Of a stretch of DNA of 64,000 bases, positions 45,475 to 54,322 are shown in pieces. Origin of the DNA: Rhodospirillales bacterium (lineage in GTDB: Bacteria; Pseudomonadota; Alphaproteobacteria; Rhodospirillales; JAPHRK01); the NCBI GenBank assembly GCA_026196105.1, contig JAPHRK010000055.1, forward strand, positions 1 to 64,000, given 5' to 3'. The translations under genes were made by a program, and so were the position numbers. The notes beneath the pieces were generated by a model. That model had not been told where the DNA came from. It saw nothing but the letters and a program-made list of their open reading frames with translations, and ran no database searches. How positions within the stretch are numbered: the first letter of the stretch is position 1; every line of letters begins with the position of its first letter.

Positions 45475-45927
45475 GGCTTGCGACTGCAAGTCCCCACGTC
45501 GGCGTACGTGAGCCTGCGTAGCGCTTGAGCGCAGCAAGCATCGCTTGCGCAATTAACTAGTCCCGACTATATTAGGGGCGTCGGGCAACCGACTATGACG
45601 ATAAACGCTTTGTGTAATAGATATTGCGGACCAGGGGGCGGTACCCTGCGCCTCCACCATATTTTCCCAGTGTTTTAGGGATCTGCTGTTGCTTCAGGAC
45701 AGTTTGGAAATATGGGGGCGAAATAGGATCGACGTGTATTGAAAGACTTAGTTTTCGTCCGGTATTGTACCACCGTTACCGGGCTATTTTTATAGATGCC
45801 AACGATAATCGTATGGCTCCAGCAGCGATGGCCGCGTAAGCACCATCAAAGCGAATCTATGTAAATTCCTGTATTCCTGAGCGTTTATAGGTGCGGTCCG
45901 GAGGGCACCGATCAACCGAAGCCCTCC
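45475..45927 (+). ncRNA. ssrA: tmRNA, circularly permuted two-piece form (alpha type)
   Basis: Rescues stalled ribosomes. The acceptor piece comes first and ends in GCGCCTCCACCA at 45648-45659; the coding piece begins with GGGGGCGAAATAGGATCGAC at 45714. GGGGGCG pairs with CGCCTCC to make the acceptor stem, including the G3-U70 pair that marks alanine identity. A T-arm (CAGGG/CCCTG, loop GGCGGTA) precedes it. The tag frame at 45798-45839 reads ANDNRMAPAAMAA then stop. An 8-bp helix between pieces (ATAAACGC 45601-45608 with GCGTTTAT 45881-45888) supports the fold. Bases 45660-45713 are the removed spacer. The 5' limit is approximate. Confidence 0.92.
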
Positions 45928-45941
45928 ACTTTCTTTTTATT
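45900..45941 (+). terminator. Hairpin terminator after tmRNA
   Basis: GGAGGGC at 45900-45906 pairs with GCCCTCC at 45921-45927, followed by the T-rich run ACTTTCTTTTTATT. The hairpin may also be the last helix of the tmRNA coding piece. The stretch from about 45942 to 46205 shows no gene. Confidence 0.7.
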
Positions 45942-46205: not shown

Positions 46206-47204
46206 ATGTCTATCCTGAATAGAAAAAAATATATGACCTATTCTCGCTATGCATTGTCTGGCTTAGCATTTTTTGGCATGACACTTTTGTCTGTCAGTAA
46301 TGCTCAGGCTCAAGGCAATTTTAACAATCCAAATGTCTCCGTTGACTTTAGCGTCTTGGAAGACAATGGCGTTACATCAAAAAGCTCATCTTCGAAACGA
46401 ATGTATCGCACGTTTCCAACAGGAGATGGCTATCTCCAGATGCCGAGCCCGAACACGCCTGTTTCTACCTTTGTACCTCTGCCAGAAACGGTGACACTGA
46501 CGAAGCCTGCACCTGTAGTGATGAAATCAGAAGCCTCAAGCTTCACACCGCCTCCGGCTCTTCCAAAGGTTGCCGCTATAGAGCCTGCTCCGCCAGTTGT
46601 AAAAAAGCCGAAGAGACAAGAGGTTAAGGTTCAGCTAAAACCTAAACAGGACGTTGGCATGCCAAAAGCCTTACCTATGGCACCAAAATCAGTTCAACAG
46701 AAAACCCCTGATCTTCCTCCCGCGACACCGACGATGAAAAAAGTGGATGCACCGCCTCCACCTCCTGCGGTCAAGAAGCCTGCGGTAACCAAAGAAACTA
46801 TTCCTGCACCAAAAATGGTCACCAAGCCAAAACCAGTTAAAGTTGCTGCCCTGACGCCCAAAGCAACACCAAAGGCTGTTACAGGCTCAAAAGGCGATCT
46901 TTTCACTATTGGTTTTGATGCAACTTCCAGCAAGCTTTCAAACACAGCCAAAGAAGCTCTGAAACCCATGGCCGCGAGTTTGAAAGACGAAACTGGAAAG
47001 CGATTACAAATTTTGGCATATGCCGGAGGTGACACACTCTCACCGAGCCGGGCAAGACGTTTGTCTCTCTCTCGGGCTTTGGCGGTTCGTTCATATTTGA
47101 TCGATCAAGGCCTTCGTAGTACACGAATTGACGTCCGAGCTTTAGGAAGCAAAGTTCCCGATGGCGCTCCTAACCGGGTAGACTTGAAGGTTATCGCTCG
47201 CTGA
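46206..47204 (+). CDS. OmpA-family protein with proline-rich linker
   Basis: 332 residues. After a signal peptide (to about residue 37, SNAQAQ), a long Pro/Lys/Ala-rich linker (about 100-225) spans the periplasm, and the C-terminal OmpA/peptidoglycan-binding domain (about 230-332) has TIGFDATSSKLSNTAKEALK and the SRARRLSLSRALAVRSYLIDQG motif. It is an inner- or outer-membrane tether to murein. First of three genes with a MotA-like and a MotB-like protein, 29 bp apart. An alternative ATG at 46233 begins the signal peptide. Confidence 0.85.
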   Translation: MSILNRKKYMTYSRYALSGLAFFGMTLLSVSNAQAQGNFNNPNVSVDFSVLEDNGVTSKSSSSKRMYRTFPTGDGYLQMPSPNTPVSTFVPLPETVTLTKPAPVVMKSEASSFTPPPALPKVAAIEPAPPVVKKPKRQEVKVQLKPKQDVGMPKALPMAPKSVQQKTPDLPPATPTMKKVDAPPPPPAVKKPAVTKETIPAPKMVTKPKPVKVAALTPKATPKAVTGSKGDLFTIGFDATSSKLSNTAKEALKPMAASLKDETGKRLQILAYAGGDTLSPSRARRLSLSRALAVRSYLIDQGLRSTRIDVRALGSKVPDGAPNRVDLKVIAR

Positions 47205-47233
47205 TCTCATTTAAACTTAGAGGAACCTAACGG

Positions 47234-48343
47234 ATGACCCGCCCCCAGCGTTTTCTAATGCGGATGATATTTTTCGTATTGGCAGTAACGGCAGTAGGCG
47301 GGTTGCTCTACTTGCCTTTACGCGAAGCCTTCCTCTCTAATGCCCCCCTTAATGGATTAATTCTTGGTGTTCTCCTGATTGGAATCATCTATAACTTCCG
47401 GCAAGTGGGTATGCTCTACCCGGAAGTTACCTGGATTGAAAACTTCCGGGAGAACGAGGATCGTCCAGCCCTTTCCCAAGAAGATAACAAACAACCTAAG
47501 TTGTTGGCACCCATGGCGACCATGCTGGGTGAAAAGAAAAACCGCTTAAAGCTATCAACCCTTTCTATGCGGTCGTTATTAGATGGCATTGCGTCGCGCT
47601 TAGATGAATCTCGTGAAATCTCTCGCTATACCATCGGCCTCCTCATCTTCCTTGGTCTTTTAGGCACCTTTTGGGGATTACTTGAGACTGTTGGTTCAAT
47701 TGGATCTGTCATCGGAGGGCTATCTGTTGTTGGCGGCGATATGACCAACATGTTCCAGGAGCTGAAAGAAGGCCTTGAAGCGCCTTTACACGGCATGGGA
47801 ACAGCTTTTAGCTCTTCTCTCTTTGGTTTGGCTGGCTCACTCGTCCTTGGTTTTCTTGATCTGCAGGCTGGCCAAGCTCAAAACCGCTTTTACAACGATC
47901 TAGAAGAATGGCTCTCAAGCTTGACCCACCTTTCAAGTGGTGGCATCGGTGATGGCGGAGATCAATCAGTTCCTGCCTACGTTCAAGCTTTGCTTGAGCA
48001 AACCGCTGAGAGCTTAGAGAATTTGCAACGGACTATGGCTAAAGGCGAGGACGCCCGTATCCAATCTTCCCGCAATACCATAGCCCTGACCGAGAAGCTC
48101 AGCGTTATGGGTGACCAGATGCAGGCTCAACAACATCTTTTGGTTAAGCTTGCCGAGAGCATGGAGAATGTTGGCGGCATGGATGCAGCTACACAAAACC
48201 ACATTCGCAATCTAGACCTATATATGGTTCGCCTTATCGAAGAAATGGCCAGTGGTCGTGATGATACAGTTCAGCAGTTGCGTAGTGAGATAAAACTTTT
48301 AGCCCGCACTATCGCTGCCATGCCCGATAAGATGGGTCGGTAG
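47234..48343 (+). CDS. MotA/TolQ/ExbB-like proton channel protein
   Basis: 369 residues with TM helices near 9-31, 36-52, 135-158 and 190-215. The region TIGLLIFLGLLGTFWGLLETV and the later LHGMGTAFSSSLFGLAGSLVLGFL are the hallmarks of the MotA/TolQ/ExbB stator family. An unusually long C-terminal cytoplasmic coiled coil (about 225-365) follows. It is the partner for the MotB-like gene 5 bp downstream. No flagellar genes are near, so it may energise an envelope process rather than a flagellum. Confidence 0.88.
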   Translation: MTRPQRFLMRMIFFVLAVTAVGGLLYLPLREAFLSNAPLNGLILGVLLIGIIYNFRQVGMLYPEVTWIENFRENEDRPALSQEDNKQPKLLAPMATMLGEKKNRLKLSTLSMRSLLDGIASRLDESREISRYTIGLLIFLGLLGTFWGLLETVGSIGSVIGGLSVVGGDMTNMFQELKEGLEAPLHGMGTAFSSSLFGLAGSLVLGFLDLQAGQAQNRFYNDLEEWLSSLTHLSSGGIGDGGDQSVPAYVQALLEQTAESLENLQRTMAKGEDARIQSSRNTIALTEKLSVMGDQMQAQQHLLVKLAESMENVGGMDAATQNHIRNLDLYMVRLIEEMASGRDDTVQQLRSEIKLLARTIAAMPDKMGR

Positions 48344-48348
48344 GCCCC

Positions 48349-49482
48349 ATGGCAGGACTCGCCACCAGAAGACGCCGCGGCGATACAAACACCTGGCCAG
48401 GGTTTGTGGATGCTTTAGCGACTTTGTTGATGGTGATTATCTTTTTGCTGATGATTTTCGTTTTGGCTCAGTTTTTCCTGAGTCAGGCCCTTACAGGACG
48501 GGATAAAGCTTTAGACCATTTGAGAGGTCAGGTAAGTGAGTTAGCAAGCCTCCTAGCCCTTGAGCGCAAAACCAACGAAGCCCTTCAGATAGACATTTCT
48601 CAGCTTTCTCAAGAGCTGCAGTCTTCAGTCGTTAAACAAGATGATCTATCTATTGAAGCTGAGAAGCTGCTTAGGGCAGGAAAATCTGATAAAGAAGCTC
48701 TAAAAGAGAAAATTACGGAAGCCAACCGATTGGCTGCTGAAGTTGAAGCCCTAAATGCTTTAAAAGAGGAACTCCAAGAAAAACTCTCCAAAATGGCGGG
48801 GCGCTTGGATGAGAATGAAAAAGGTCTCCTAAAAGAGCAAGATCTTTCAAAGTCTGCCCGCGCTGAAGTTGCTTTGTTGAACAAACAGCTTAAGGCCTTG
48901 CGCGAACAAATGGCAGCTCTTAATGCCACCCTTGAAGCATCTGAAGAACTTGCCAAAAAGCAGAAAGTCCAAATCACGAATTTAGGCAGCCGCCTTAATG
49001 CCGCACTCGCAGGTAAGGTACAGGAGCTCTCCCGCTATCGCTCTGAGTTTTTTGGTCGCTTAAAAGAGGTTCTCGGTCGCCGGAAGGATTTAACGATCGT
49101 TGGTGATCGCTTTGTTTTCCAATCTGAAGTACTCTTCACAACTGGCTCTGCTGACTTGGGTGAGCCAGGAAAAATTCAGCTTCAGGTCTTTGCTGAAACC
49201 CTCAAAGAAATTGCTGCTAAAATCCCAAACACCATTCAATGGATTCTCAGAGTCGACGGCCATACGGACAGGGTGCCTATTAAAAACTGGAAATATCCCT
49301 CTAACTGGGAGCTAGCTTCGGCTCGTGCAATTTCTGTTGTTAAATTCCTGATTGACCAAGGCATCCCTGCGGAACGTCTTGCTGCTACGGGTTTTGCCCA
49401 ATACCAGCCCTTAGCTGAAGGAAAAAATCAAACGGCCTTAAAACGCAATCGCCGTATCGAAATGAAACTCACCCAGCAATAA
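48349..49482 (+). CDS. MotB/OmpA-like stator subunit with coiled coil
   Basis: 377 residues: one TM helix (about 19-46) beginning PGFVDALATLLMVIIFLL, with D21 at the place of the proton-carrying Asp of MotB and ExbD. A long coiled coil (about 60-225) and an OmpA murein-binding domain (about 240-377; VDGHTDRVPIKN, SNWELASARAISVVKFL) follow. Only 5 bp separate it from the MotA-like gene. The D21-TM plus OmpA layout supports proton-driven force on the cell wall. The pair is not close to canonical MotAB by length. Confidence 0.9.
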   Translation: MAGLATRRRRGDTNTWPGFVDALATLLMVIIFLLMIFVLAQFFLSQALTGRDKALDHLRGQVSELASLLALERKTNEALQIDISQLSQELQSSVVKQDDLSIEAEKLLRAGKSDKEALKEKITEANRLAAEVEALNALKEELQEKLSKMAGRLDENEKGLLKEQDLSKSARAEVALLNKQLKALREQMAALNATLEASEELAKKQKVQITNLGSRLNAALAGKVQELSRYRSEFFGRLKEVLGRRKDLTIVGDRFVFQSEVLFTTGSADLGEPGKIQLQVFAETLKEIAAKIPNTIQWILRVDGHTDRVPIKNWKYPSNWELASARAISVVKFLIDQGIPAERLAATGFAQYQPLAEGKNQTALKRNRRIEMKLTQQ

Positions 49483-49489
49483 GTAACCT

Positions 49490-51997
49490 TTAGCCAAGGA
49501 TGTTTTGAAGAGCCTTGGACATTCTCATCCTGGTCAGGGGTTTTGTTAGGTACTCAGCAACGCCAATTTCCTTCGCCCGTTCAGAGTCTATTGTCGCGCT
49601 AAATCCAGTCACCATTACAATGGGAAGGTCAGAACGGACATCAAGGATGAACTCAACAAGTTGAGACCCTATCATCCCAGGCATCGTTTGATCTGTTATC
49701 ACCACATCAAAAAAGTTAGGGTCAGCCTTAATTTTATCTAAGGCCTCAAGACTGCTGGTCACCCCCGTGGGGTCTAAGCCCATAGCTGAGAACATCGTGA
49801 GGAGCATATCAACATTTTCAACTTCATCATCTACAACAAGAACCCGCTCACCCCGTCCTTTAAATAAGGCTTCTTCTGCAACGGCGACAATGCCCTCCCC
49901 CTCAACAACAGGCAAATAGACTTGAAATGTCGACCCATGACCCAGTTCACTATATACATTGATACAACCACCATGGCTGCGGACAATGCCGTGAACAGTG
50001 GCTAACCCCAACCCCGTCCCTTTGCCGTTTTCTTTGGTGGTAAAAAACGGTTCAAATATCTTTTCTTTTATCGCCTCATCCATGCCGTAGCCCGTATCGC
50101 TAATACTAAGGCGTACGTAGGTTCCTGGCTGTAAATCTACTCTGTGATTGGCAAAGCTATCATCAACATCAAATTCTTCCAGAACAACTGAGAGCTCCCC
50201 ACCTTTCTCTTCCATGGCCTGTGATGCATTGGTGCAAAGATTCATCACCGTTTGGTGCATTTGAGCAGGGTCAGCTAAAATAGGGCGGCAAGTACCAAGT
50301 ATTTCTTCGTGGATTTTTATGGTTTTAGGAATAACCGATTTTAAAAGCCCCAAAGCTTCTGAAACCACCTGCTGAAGATTCGTTGGTTCAGCTGTACTTT
50401 CACCTTGGCGGCTCATAGTCATAATTTGTTTAATTAAATTGATAGCTCGGTGGGAAGCTGCAGAAATTCTCCCAACCCATTCATGTTCTTTACTGTCTTT
50501 TGGTAGTTTTGTTCCGAGGATTTCAGAGAAACCAACAATGGGATTTAGGATGTTGTTAAAGTCATGAGCAATCCCCCCCGTTAGTCGGCCAATTGTTTCC
50601 ATCTTTTGCGAGTGCCGAAGTTGCTTTTCTAGGTTTTTATTTTCTAAATCAATTTGGGTTTGCTCAGTGATATCCGTGCCAATGCCTCGATAGCCAATGA
50701 AGGTACCATCAACATCATAAATCGGACGTCCTGAGGCTTTGAAGTGAAAATGCCGCCCATTTGGGAATGTCGCTTCATATATAAAATCACGAAAAGTTTT
50801 CTCGGCTTTCATATCCGAAAAATGCTTCTTAAAGCTTTCTGAACCTTCTCCTTCTTTGGCATATACTCCCCTGACCGTACCAATAAATTGTTCAGGGTCC
50901 ATCCCGGTGACTTTTTTATATCGCTCAGAAAAATACGTAAATTTTAAATCAGCATCGCACTCCCACACCCAATCGGAAGAAGATTCAACCACATCCCTAT
51001 AGCGTTGCTCACTTAAAAACAGGGCTGTTTCAGCCTCTTTACGTTTCTGCAAATGGATTTTCAAAATTGAAACTAACCCTAACAGAACCCCCAAGGACAC
51101 AACAACCAACATGAAAAGGTAGGTACTGCGGGCGTTCCAAGGGACTAGGGCTTTGTCTACAGGAATAGACGTTACTATATATATAGGAAAGCTTGGAACC
51201 TTGGCATAAGAGACCAATCTTTCAAAGTTCTCATCAAAGAGCATCAGTTGGAAGCTACCTGACTCTTTGTCTCCCTCCTCGTCTTTACCAATAAAATCAA
51301 TAACTTGTCCATAGACAGGATCAAGCCCTACTGTAAACTTCGGGGAAGTAGCGAAAATCAGCCCTTTATCAGTCACATAAGCCGAGCTAACACCTTGCTC
51401 TTCTTCAACCCGTTTATAAACATCATTAAAGTACTCTTGTTTGACAAGAGCCATGGTAATTCCATCAAAGGAGCCATCTGGTTTTACGATCTGCCGACTG
51501 GTCGAGAAAAACCAGTTATCCGTCGTTCTCCCTTTTAAAGGTTGGCCAATATAAAGGCCGGCATTTGGGATGTCTTTCAGATATTTGAAGTACTTTCGAT
51601 CATGAATGTCCATCCCGATGCTTTTCTTGCGTTCCGTATAGCGGATGATCCCATTAGCGTCGGTGAGAATCATTCCTCTAATTTGTGGAAGTTCAGCAAT
51701 ATAATCTTTAAATTCTTTAATAATAACCTGTGCTGTTCTAGGTGTTTCTTTGCGGTCTCGTTCAGCTTGTTTTTTTACTGTGAGCAAGGTCAGATTAACC
51801 GCATCAAGAGAACGCGCTGCGTGTTCTGCTAAGTTCCCCGCAAGCGATTGGATATGTCTTTCTGTCCAGGCAATCGTGTTTACGTGATCCTGCCAACTAC
51901 TGATTCCAGCGACCATAATGATTGAAGCAACGGTCCCAACGGCAAACAAGTTGAGGCGTCGCCTTAGGCCATCATAACTTTTTTGGTCTAAAGACAT
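49490..51997 (-). CDS. Hybrid sensor histidine kinase (dCache-PAS-HisKA-HATPase-REC)
   Basis: About 835 residues: TM1 (about 15-35), a large periplasmic Cache-type sensor region (about 40-285), TM2 (about 290-312), PAS (about 330-445), HisKA with GGIAHDFNN (His about 478), HATPase ([23 protein letters not shown]) and a C-terminal receiver (about 715-835; [22 protein letters not shown]). The HDFNN H-box group often carries one attached receiver. The ATG at 51997 has AGGGG upstream; an upstream in-frame TTG is less likely. It converges with the MotB-like gene (7 bp). Ligand unknown. Confidence 0.92.
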
Positions 51998-52294
51998 GCA
52001 CACCCCTAACGACAATTTAATGGATATTTCTTGGGCAGTTATTTTACTTTTACGTTAGTTTCGAGACTTCCTCAACATTTAACAAAATTTCTGCCTTGAG
52101 GATTTGGGTTTCCATAAGATTAAAAACAACCGTTTCATTCCTATCCCTTCAATAAAGTGCCAATGGCAGGGAATAATCTTCCTTTTTCCTTGCATCAAAT
52201 ATAAGGCGGTTTAACCTTTCAATGTTAGGGAAATTGGGTGGCGATGGTCAGCCCCTCGCTGCCTGGACTTGAATTGTTCTGGGAGGGAATATTT

Positions 52295-54322
52295 ATGACC
52301 AAAACCGTATCCGGCCCCCGTTGTGCCGCCATAGTTGGACCTTACTTAAGCGGTAAGACCACGTTACTTGAAGATATACTACACATGGTTGGCGCTACTG
52401 ACCGACGTGGGACGATTAAGGACGGAAATACCGTTGGGGACTCGTCTACTGAAGCCCGCTCCCGATCAATGAGCACTGAAATCAACGTCACCTCTATCAA
52501 TTACCTGGATGAGCCTTGGACAATTATTGATTGCCCTGGGTCGGTAGAGATTTCCCAAGACGGGCGTAATGCCATCATGGTTGCCGATATTGTCGTTGTC
52601 GTTTGTGAACCTACACCTGACCGAGCCATTACTGTTTCTCCCTGGCTACAAGTCCTTGATGATCATGACATCCCTCATATTATTTATATCAACAAGATGG
52701 ATACGCCCGCTGCATCAGTTAGAAGTACGTTCGAAGCCCTGCAAACCGTTTCGGATCGGCCTTTAATTTTACGGGAAATTCCGCTTCGAGAAGGGGATAA
52801 AGTTATTGGGCATGTAGACCTCGTAAGTGAAAGAGCTTATGGCTGGAACGAAGATAAACCCTCAACATTAATGCAGCTCCCCGACTCGGCCTCAGACGAG
52901 GAGCAAATTGCTCGCATAGAAATGCTTGAATCACTTGCAGATTTTGATGATGGCTTGATGGAAGAGCTACTTGAAGATGTCGTACCTTCAACAGATGAAA
53001 TCTATGAAAACCTCACCAAAGATTTGCAACAAGACCTCATTGTCCCCGTTTTCTTTGGTTCAGCAGAACACGAGAACGGAATCACACGGCTGTTAAAGGC
53101 TTTGCGTCATGAAACAGCCGAAGTTGATAAAACAGCTGATAGATTAGGTATTGATACGTCCAGCAATGAAACGATTGCTCAGGTTTTCAAAACTTTGCAT
53201 GCAGGTCACAGTGGTAAACTCTCCTTAGCAAGGGTTTGGTCTGGTGAACTAAAAGATGGGGATTCGCTCGGGGAAAACCGAGTTAGTGGTGTCGCCAAAA
53301 TGTTTGGGCGCCAAACCAACAAGTTAGCCAAAGCCGTAGCAGGTGACATTATCGCTCTTGCCCGTATGGACGAAGTCCAGACAAGTGATCTTCTGTCAAC
53401 TTCTGGCTCAGCCGAAGCCCCTTCCTGGCCCTCCCCTCTTACTCCTTTGTTCTCTTTTGCTATCCATGTAGAAAAGCAAGCCGATGAAGTGAAATTAATG
53501 GGGGCTCTACATAAGTTATCTGAAGAAGACCCCTCCCTTAGCTTTATCCAGAACGAAGATACCGGAGAGTTTCTCCTTCAAGGGCAAGGCGAAATCCATT
53601 TACAAATCGCCGCGGCTCGTCTCAAAAACGACTATAACTTGAGTATTGTCACTGAACGACCTCATGCGCCTTACAAAGAAACAATTCGCAAAGGCATTTC
53701 TCAACACGCACGTTACAAGAAACAAAGTGGTGGACATGGTGAGTTTGGAGATGTTCATATCGATATTAAGCCACTCCCTCGAGGTGAAGGTTTCTCTTAT
53801 AGTGATACCATCACTGGAGGAGTCGTCCCCAAGCAGTATATTCCGGCTGTAGAGAAAGGGGTGATTGATTATCTCAGACGAGGTCCACTAGGCTTCCAAG
53901 TTGTTGATCTTTCCGTTGTTTTAACCGATGGACAATACCATGCTGTTGATAGCTCCGACATGGCCTTCCAAAGAGCTGGAGCAGCTGCCATGCGGGAAGG
54001 TATGCCGCAATGTAGCCCGGTCTTATTAGAACCTATTTTAAACGTCTCAATCTCAATCCCCAATGAGTTCACCTCAAAAATTCAACGCCTTGTGAGTGGA
54101 CGCCGAGGGCAAATTCTTGGCTTTAATGCCAAAGAGGGCTGTAATGGTTGGGATGAGGTTAAGGCTATGATGCCTCAAGCCGAAACTGTTGACCTAATCA
54201 TTGAGCTGCGCTCTTTGACCTTAGGGGTTGGAACTTACGAGTATGAATTCGATCACCTTCAAGAGTTTACAGGTAAGCAAGCGGATCAAGTGGTAGAAGC
54301 ACGAGCTAAAGCTCAAAAATAA
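52295..54322 (+). CDS. Elongation factor G-like GTPase
   Basis: 675 residues with EF-G domain order. The P-loop is GPYLSGKT (G15-T22), which differs from the EF-G consensus GHVDSGKT; the DxxG motif is DCPG, the NKxD motif is NKMD. The switch I region is weak (STEINVTSI) and the usual RGITI is missing. Domain IV carries KKQSGGHGEFGDVHI. It is not linked to ribosomal protein genes, so it is a paralogue, not the main translocase; similar EF-G-like proteins occur in relatives. GGGAGGG lies just upstream of the chosen ATG; the frame extends to 52238. Confidence 0.9.
   Translation: MTKTVSGPRCAAIVGPYLSGKTTLLEDILHMVGATDRRGTIKDGNTVGDSSTEARSRSMSTEINVTSINYLDEPWTIIDCPGSVEISQDGRNAIMVADIVVVVCEPTPDRAITVSPWLQVLDDHDIPHIIYINKMDTPAASVRSTFEALQTVSDRPLILREIPLREGDKVIGHVDLVSERAYGWNEDKPSTLMQLPDSASDEEQIARIEMLESLADFDDGLMEELLEDVVPSTDEIYENLTKDLQQDLIVPVFFGSAEHENGITRLLKALRHETAEVDKTADRLGIDTSSNETIAQVFKTLHAGHSGKLSLARVWSGELKDGDSLGENRVSGVAKMFGRQTNKLAKAVAGDIIALARMDEVQTSDLLSTSGSAEAPSWPSPLTPLFSFAIHVEKQADEVKLMGALHKLSEEDPSLSFIQNEDTGEFLLQGQGEIHLQIAAARLKNDYNLSIVTERPHAPYKETIRKGISQHARYKKQSGGHGEFGDVHIDIKPLPRGEGFSYSDTITGGVVPKQYIPAVEKGVIDYLRRGPLGFQVVDLSVVLTDGQYHAVDSSDMAFQRAGAAAMREGMPQCSPVLLEPILNVSISIPNEFTSKIQRLVSGRRGQILGFNAKEGCNGWDEVKAMMPQAETVDLIIELRSLTLGVGTYEYEFDHLQEFTGKQADQVVEARAKAQK

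Follow-up and report, generated by a model that had tools for sequence, protein, structure and literature searches.

An alphaproteobacterial operon predicted to encode a non-flagellar, wall-linked ion-driven motor

Introduction

Motors of the MotA/TolQ type use ion flow to drive flagella, take up nutrients, stabilise the outer membrane, power gliding and defend against phages. In flagellar A subunits, four or more helices lie between transmembrane (TM) segments TM2 and TM3 and belong to a torque-generating cytoplasmic domain, and the survey of MotAB proteins that describes them characterizes non-flagellar B subunits, in its accessible part, as lacking an OmpA-type domain (PMC12505986). A second survey reports new motor-driven transducers with vWA domains; the O–A–B operon described here is not among the transducers that we found described in the accessible part of that text (PMC12204202).

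Several described systems resemble O–A–B in part. With flagellar MotAB and PomAB it has in common the TM Asp of B, the pore hydroxyls of A and an OmpA domain. Zorya ZorAB likewise combines a motor core, a long helical tail on the A subunit and a peptidoglycan-binding B subunit, as far as the accessible description goes (PMC11890865). In the Tol-Pal system, TolR is compact and has no OmpA domain, whereas the B subunit here has one. In other Pseudomonadota, a DUF802 operon encodes an A-like protein of about 700–1000 aa, an OmpA-type B of about 215–225 aa and a DUF2894 protein.

The A–B pair itself is already in the databases, where B is NCBIfam PRK09039 (NF006543, 'peptidoglycan-binding protein') and its partner a 'MotA/TolQ/ExbB proton channel family protein', for example in S. 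meliloti, so the pair is not new there. These names carry no function, and the annotation mentions neither O nor a connection with a non-flagellar motor. A search of the open-licence literature, with subscription journals mostly outside its scope, returned nothing on O–A–B as a unit or on the function of PRK09039 or DUF802.

Operon organization and distribution

We analysed a window of 64,000 nucleotides (positions 1 to 64,000 of contig JAPHRK010000055.1, assembly GCA_026196105.1) from a Rhodospirillales bacterium. Three genes lie on its + strand in the order O, A, B. O (46206–47204) encodes a secreted-looking, Pro-rich protein of 332 aa with a C-terminal OmpA-like domain, A (47234–48343) a MotA/TolQ/ZorA-type channel subunit of 369 aa and B (48349–49482) a MotB-type subunit of 377 aa with an OmpA-type peptidoglycan-binding domain. 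The gaps are 29 bp between O and A and 5 bp between A and B. The OmpA, MotA-like and MotB-like reading frames named in the preliminary description were thus all recovered.

A Pfam scan of five neighbours in the window identified a short-chain dehydrogenase/reductase (SDR), dihydrofolate reductase (DHFR), thymidylate synthase, a histidine kinase and an EF-G-like protein. The kinase, a hybrid histidine kinase (49490–52015, − strand), and the EF-G-like protein (52238–54322, + strand) are encoded 3′ of the operon, and a permuted alphaproteobacterial tmRNA (45541–45930, + strand; RF01849, 247 bits) lies just 5′ of O. A scan for promoters and terminators gave sites no more numerous than in shuffled sequences. 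In relatives, the 5′ side of the operon holds inositol monophosphatase, thiamine phosphate synthase and GAPDH genes, with ZapA farther up, and the 3′ side an MFS transporter gene; an elongation-factor-P-like gene, identified by eye, accompanies them. The surroundings in relatives are housekeeping genes. The annotated S. meliloti locus consists of inositol monophosphatase, A and B, and O is absent from its gene table.

Among 110 A-bearing loci (order-level and named loci, chosen for holding A, three of which repeat the A sequence of another), a B-like gene lies no more than 6 kb away on the strand of A in 108 and an O-like gene in 103, and the operon is therefore more than a chance arrangement. 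In the two loci without B, the sequence ends soon after A. Among 80 further distinct A-bearing loci, profile searches detected B at 66 and O at 49; these loci are best-scoring, small-genome or ZorA-model hits and hence a non-random set, and in several of them the sequence stops short of where B or O would lie.

A is present in 51 of 60 genomes of the same order and in 230 of 337 alphaproteobacterial genomes of at least 90% completeness. In a phylum-wide sample, it was matched in 97 of 299 genomes, 23 of them outside Alphaproteobacteria; five of these 23 matches are strong (E-value of 1e-97 or better) and 18 are weak. The strong ones may reflect either transfer or deep descent. A had no match among 50,697 phage records, and the three matches among 72,556 plasmid records are all in very large replicons.

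Three loci outside the class contain A–B pairs without O, which nest with A in the tree (see below) where included. Seven A-like genes come from genomes of 0.7–1.1 Mb and have no recognisable adjacent B. PF03500 was found in nine of the 337 class genomes, and a search centred on one of these nine covered family f85, in which A is present in 66 of 75 genomes.

The predicted motor subunits A and B

A scores 17.6 bits against Pfam MotA_ExbB, under the 22.9-bit cut-off, and appears from its sequence to be a MotA/TolQ-type channel protein too divergent to reach that cut-off. The AlphaFold model of A (46 alignment rows, mean pLDDT 80.5, pTM 0.59) comprises helices 4–24, 26–35, 37–76, 92–100, 109–162, 170–232, 248–312 and 318–362. 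The four predicted TM segments lie within helices 4–24, 37–76, 109–162 and 170–232, and the last two helices, 248–312 and 318–362, form a tail that is modelled with low confidence. The best matches among solved structures are TolQ (8vlw; Z 11.8, 3.7 Å over 195 residues), ExbB (5sv1; 11.6), ZorA (8vvn; 11.0) and MotA (6ykm; 10.1); these Z-scores are modest, since all-helical matches are safe only from about 13 by the tool's own note. All of the top 23 matches belong to the MotA/TolQ/ExbB/ZorA superfamily, and the model bears out the earlier view of A as a MotA/TolQ-like channel with a long tail.

Thr145 and Ser195 of A align with pore-lining hydroxyl residues of TolQ and MotA, Ser195 taking the position of the TM4 Thr in both. 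Each is invariant in 233 of 233 confident relatives and, with looser limits, is retained in 246 of 247. In family f85 (e.g., G692:C18 and G663:C210), the open frames that contain A are as long as 819 aa, with an apparent expansion of the tail and repeated tail matches.

B has a Pfam OmpA domain (4.4e-15) and scores 455.3 bits against NF006543 (PRK09039.1-2), well above the curated cut-off of 305, and is thus a member of that family. One TM segment with Asp21 in a WPGFVD motif is followed by a coiled coil to about residue 242 and by an OmpA-type domain with the motif G304-H-T-D307 and Arg326. In the AlphaFold model (37 alignment rows, pLDDT 77.6, pTM 0.46, with low confidence in the linker), a continuous helix 16–109 and a second helix 118–242 precede the OmpA fold. 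Residues 230–377 align best with MotS (9ljm; Z 16.2), PomB (3wpw; 15.8) and H. pylori MotB (15.5).

The functional residues of B are strongly conserved, as counted, like those of A, over distinct open reading frames from the gathered loci, fragments included. All 217 aligned relatives with scores of 200 bits or more keep Asp21, and among confident relatives the OmpA Asp (Asp307 of GHTD) is found in 206/206 and the Arg (Arg326 of LSxxRA) in 203/203. Looser limits give 227/227, 227/228 and 225/225, respectively. The description of B as a MotB-like subunit with the proton-path Asp21, a long coiled coil and an OmpA domain thus proved correct.

Relationship to flagellar stators

The genome has seven PF01618 matches, every one on a contig other than that of O–A–B. 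Contig C31 encodes a MotA that passes the NCBIfam cut-off, next to MotB, and on C46, C69 and C76 there are MotA–MotB pairs whose matches to PomA/MotB-type models fall short of the cut-offs. On C42, a MotA-type gene lies about 1.8 kb from FliG; FliG has three matches in the genome, and those listed, two of the three, are on C42 and C28. Contig C59 carries tolQ (280.9 against a cut-off of 221) within a tol-pal cluster. The operon had been described as lying away from flagellar genes, which holds as far as tested, given the scanned neighbours and the positions of the PF01618 and FliG matches. It was also considered that the genes might be the ordinary flagellar stators of this organism; when tested, this was not what we found, the other MotA and MotB genes lying elsewhere in the genome.

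Elsewhere in the same genome (L074, 5693–6960), another short MotA-like gene is 33% identical to A over residues 104–219, and its one-TM partner has an acidic TM motif.

O–A–B could instead be an additional stator, as in bacteria with second stator sets. The common superfamily, the presence of FliG in the organism and an OmpA domain in B that is nearest to those of MotS, PomB and MotB are consistent with this. However, FliG is present in 206 of the same 337 genomes, and A occurs independently of it: 145 genomes have both, 85 have A without detected FliG, 61 have FliG only and, by subtraction, 46 have neither (odds ratio 1.29, Fisher p = 0.34, no association). The model of A also has a single short extra helix, 92–100, between TM2 and TM3, and the FliG-contacting helical domain of flagellar A subunits is absent from it. 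Furthermore, the genome already carries other MotA/MotB genes, and A forms a clade separate from MotA.

The latter was seen in a tree of the motor core, built from 55 sequences over about 180 columns, for which the program flags long branches. Its 21 A rows form one group (99/96), and the 25 MotA/TolQ/ExbB rows stand apart (100/97). On the strength of FliG independence, the core tree and the model of A, we reject the flagellar stator, which we regard as highly improbable.

Relationship to DUF802 operons, Tol-Pal and Zorya

In the same tree, A joins six DUF802-type rows (99/98) and is not grouped with TolQ. We opened 17 informative stretches, in which the weak matches mostly correspond to a protein of about 700–1000 aa, with an OmpA-type B adjoining in several. 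In Pfam scans, the single A-like protein of this kind that was scanned has DUF802, and one neighbour has DUF2894. The DUF802 operon is thus the sister group of A, and the weak matches outside the class are of this kind where opened. Three loci outside Alphaproteobacteria are DUF802-type motor operons sister to A, a kind of operon that one paper in the open-licence literature mentions. The two kinds of operon differ in that A of the window has no DUF802 and a shorter tail, the coiled coil of B is long, and O replaces DUF2894. A Pfam scan of A at E-values up to 10 gave no DUF802 and MotA_ExbB alone, below its cut-off.

A Zorya-type anti-phage system was raised as a candidate by the PADLOC matches. 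The best match of A is the ZorA model PDLC00597 (4.1e-13, 46.9 bits) and that of B is ZorB3 (7.3e-23); the tail of A is long, and ZorA structures align with its model. The ZorA profile matches of A are weak, and the ZorA-like rows of the tree are few, three long-branched sequences that remain unplaced (a further one, L216, was dropped as it has no recognisable core motif). No ZorC/ZorD or ZorE was found beside A–B among the five scanned neighbours in the window, and no helicase or nuclease among these or among six scanned families of the 16 that recur as neighbours in relatives. O–A–B differs from ZorAB, moreover, in being core chromosomal and in the long coiled coil of its B. A is single-copy and class-wide, has a housekeeping neighbourhood, and is missing from the phage records and confined to three very large replicons among the plasmid records. 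We therefore set Zorya defence aside on context and distribution, and judge it very unlikely.

O, a putative secreted partner

The N-terminus of O resembles a signal peptide that ends in AQAQ and looks cleavable by eye. It is followed by a conserved motif, VxVDLSV..D.G, then by a central region rich in Pro, and Pfam detects an OmpA domain at the C-terminus (2.3e-12). The Asp and Arg of an OmpA domain grip diaminopimelate, as described for Acinetobacter OmpA. In O, a Gly of the AYAGG motif aligns with the GYTD/GHTD Asp of E. coli YiaD; among O-like open reading frames scoring at least 100 bits, an Asp stands at this site in 3/158, and the LSxxRA Arg is kept in 158/158. Since O retains only the Arg of the pair, murein binding by O is doubtful, and its sequence suggests that it is not a standard murein binder. 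Of the two murein-binding proteins previously proposed, B, with both residues kept, stands, and O is doubtful.

The spacer of O is Pro-rich in most relatives. In a family of genomes of about 1.4 Mb, the position of O is taken by secreted proteins of 860 and 869 aa (L336, 243–2852; L338, 830–3412). Their N-terminal motif, IIIDxxxxxxLLxP, is related to that of O as judged by eye, their C-terminal end resembles that of O in degenerate form, and between the two lies a K/E-rich helical spacer of about 600 residues. The spacer seems free to vary while both ends are retained. O is absent near A in several lineages and from the S. meliloti gene table, and is therefore not required everywhere. We regard O as probably a spacer-bearing periplasmic partner of A–B that makes its contacts through protein rather than murein.

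O might, alternatively, be the transducer of a Tol-Pal- or Ton-like system, with A–B energising it and O carrying force or a tether to the outer membrane. Its place inside the operon and its two conserved ends are in keeping with this, and its spacer, whether Pro-rich or a K/E-rich helix, echoes the linkers of TonB and TolA. On the other hand, the signal peptide looks cleavable, neither a lipobox nor an SHLS-type TM anchor was seen in O by eye, the same genome has a tol-pal cluster, and some lineages have no O adjoining A. We consider such a transducer unlikely.

A model for the proposed O–A–B motor

Taken together, O–A–B is very probably a dedicated non-flagellar ion-driven motor. The conserved gene layout, the housekeeping neighbours in relatives and the K. 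hansenii phenotypes described below also speak for this reading. The FliG counts, the fold of B, the tree and the invariant residues agree with the earlier proposal of an energised envelope machine, in that it is linked to the wall and distinct from an ordinary stator. By its distribution and the full OmpA domain predicted in B, the family would be an exception to the rule drawn from the accessible part of the MotAB survey, that non-flagellar B subunits lack this domain (PMC12505986).

By analogy with solved relatives, a pentamer of A would enclose the paired TM helices of two B subunits, in a 5:2 ratio. Ions would pass as Asp21 of B meets the ring of Thr145 and Ser195 hydroxyls of A. Because the OmpA domain of B would hold peptidoglycan, one part of the machine should be stationary while the other turns. 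Rotation could lie with the cytoplasmic tail helices of A, in line with the proposal for ZorA, or else with the long coiled coil that B has in the periplasm. O, with its two conserved ends and variable spacer, would connect A–B with some other part of the envelope through contacts between proteins.

The motor reading is well supported; its output we infer. A motor with an envelope use in general is likely, and an output specifically in the envelope or division is conceivable, at somewhat short of an even chance. The machine probably works at the poles or the septum, where it could remodel the envelope at the poles or division site. At its most specific, and we offer this as rather a long shot, O–A–B would be a second system of the Tol-Pal kind, present throughout the class. 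It would comprise a rotary motor anchored in the wall at poles and septum, with O spanning from peptidoglycan-bound B to the outer membrane by a spacer that can be exchanged between a Pro-rich form and a K/E-rich helix, and it would have an ancestor in common with the DUF802 motors and perhaps Zorya. Were the non-flagellar motor itself confirmed, a class that counts plant symbionts, marine bacteria and cellulose producers among its members would gain a core motor of the cell envelope, and genes mis-annotated as 'flagellar' would become an envelope system open to testing.

Phenotypes of a probable orthologous pair

For the organism studied here, the output remains as unknown as the preliminary description had it; the sole phenotype that we found in print belongs to a probable orthologous pair in Komagataeibacter hansenii, which has no flagella (PMC6570709, PMC6315621). 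Its adjacent 'motA' and 'motB' genes encode proteins of 348 and 321 aa, MotA with four TM segments and MotB with an OmpA domain, and the best hits of MotB are in Rhodospirillum, Magnetospirillum and Rhizobium (PMC6570709). By sizes, gene order, topology and best hits, the two are probably orthologues of A–B. The likeness follows the published description, which uses flagellar names and, in its accessible part, does not describe O (PMC6570709, PMC6315621).

Overexpression of either K. hansenii gene gave longer, chained cells, looser cellulose and a roughly threefold increase in the speed of colony spreading, the last interpreted by the authors as motility; the same genes left the shape of E. 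coli unchanged (PMC6570709). These overexpression phenotypes may be unspecific. A K. hansenii motAB+ strain was likewise elongated (PMC6315621), and GFP fusions of MotA and MotB were both polar (PMC6570709).
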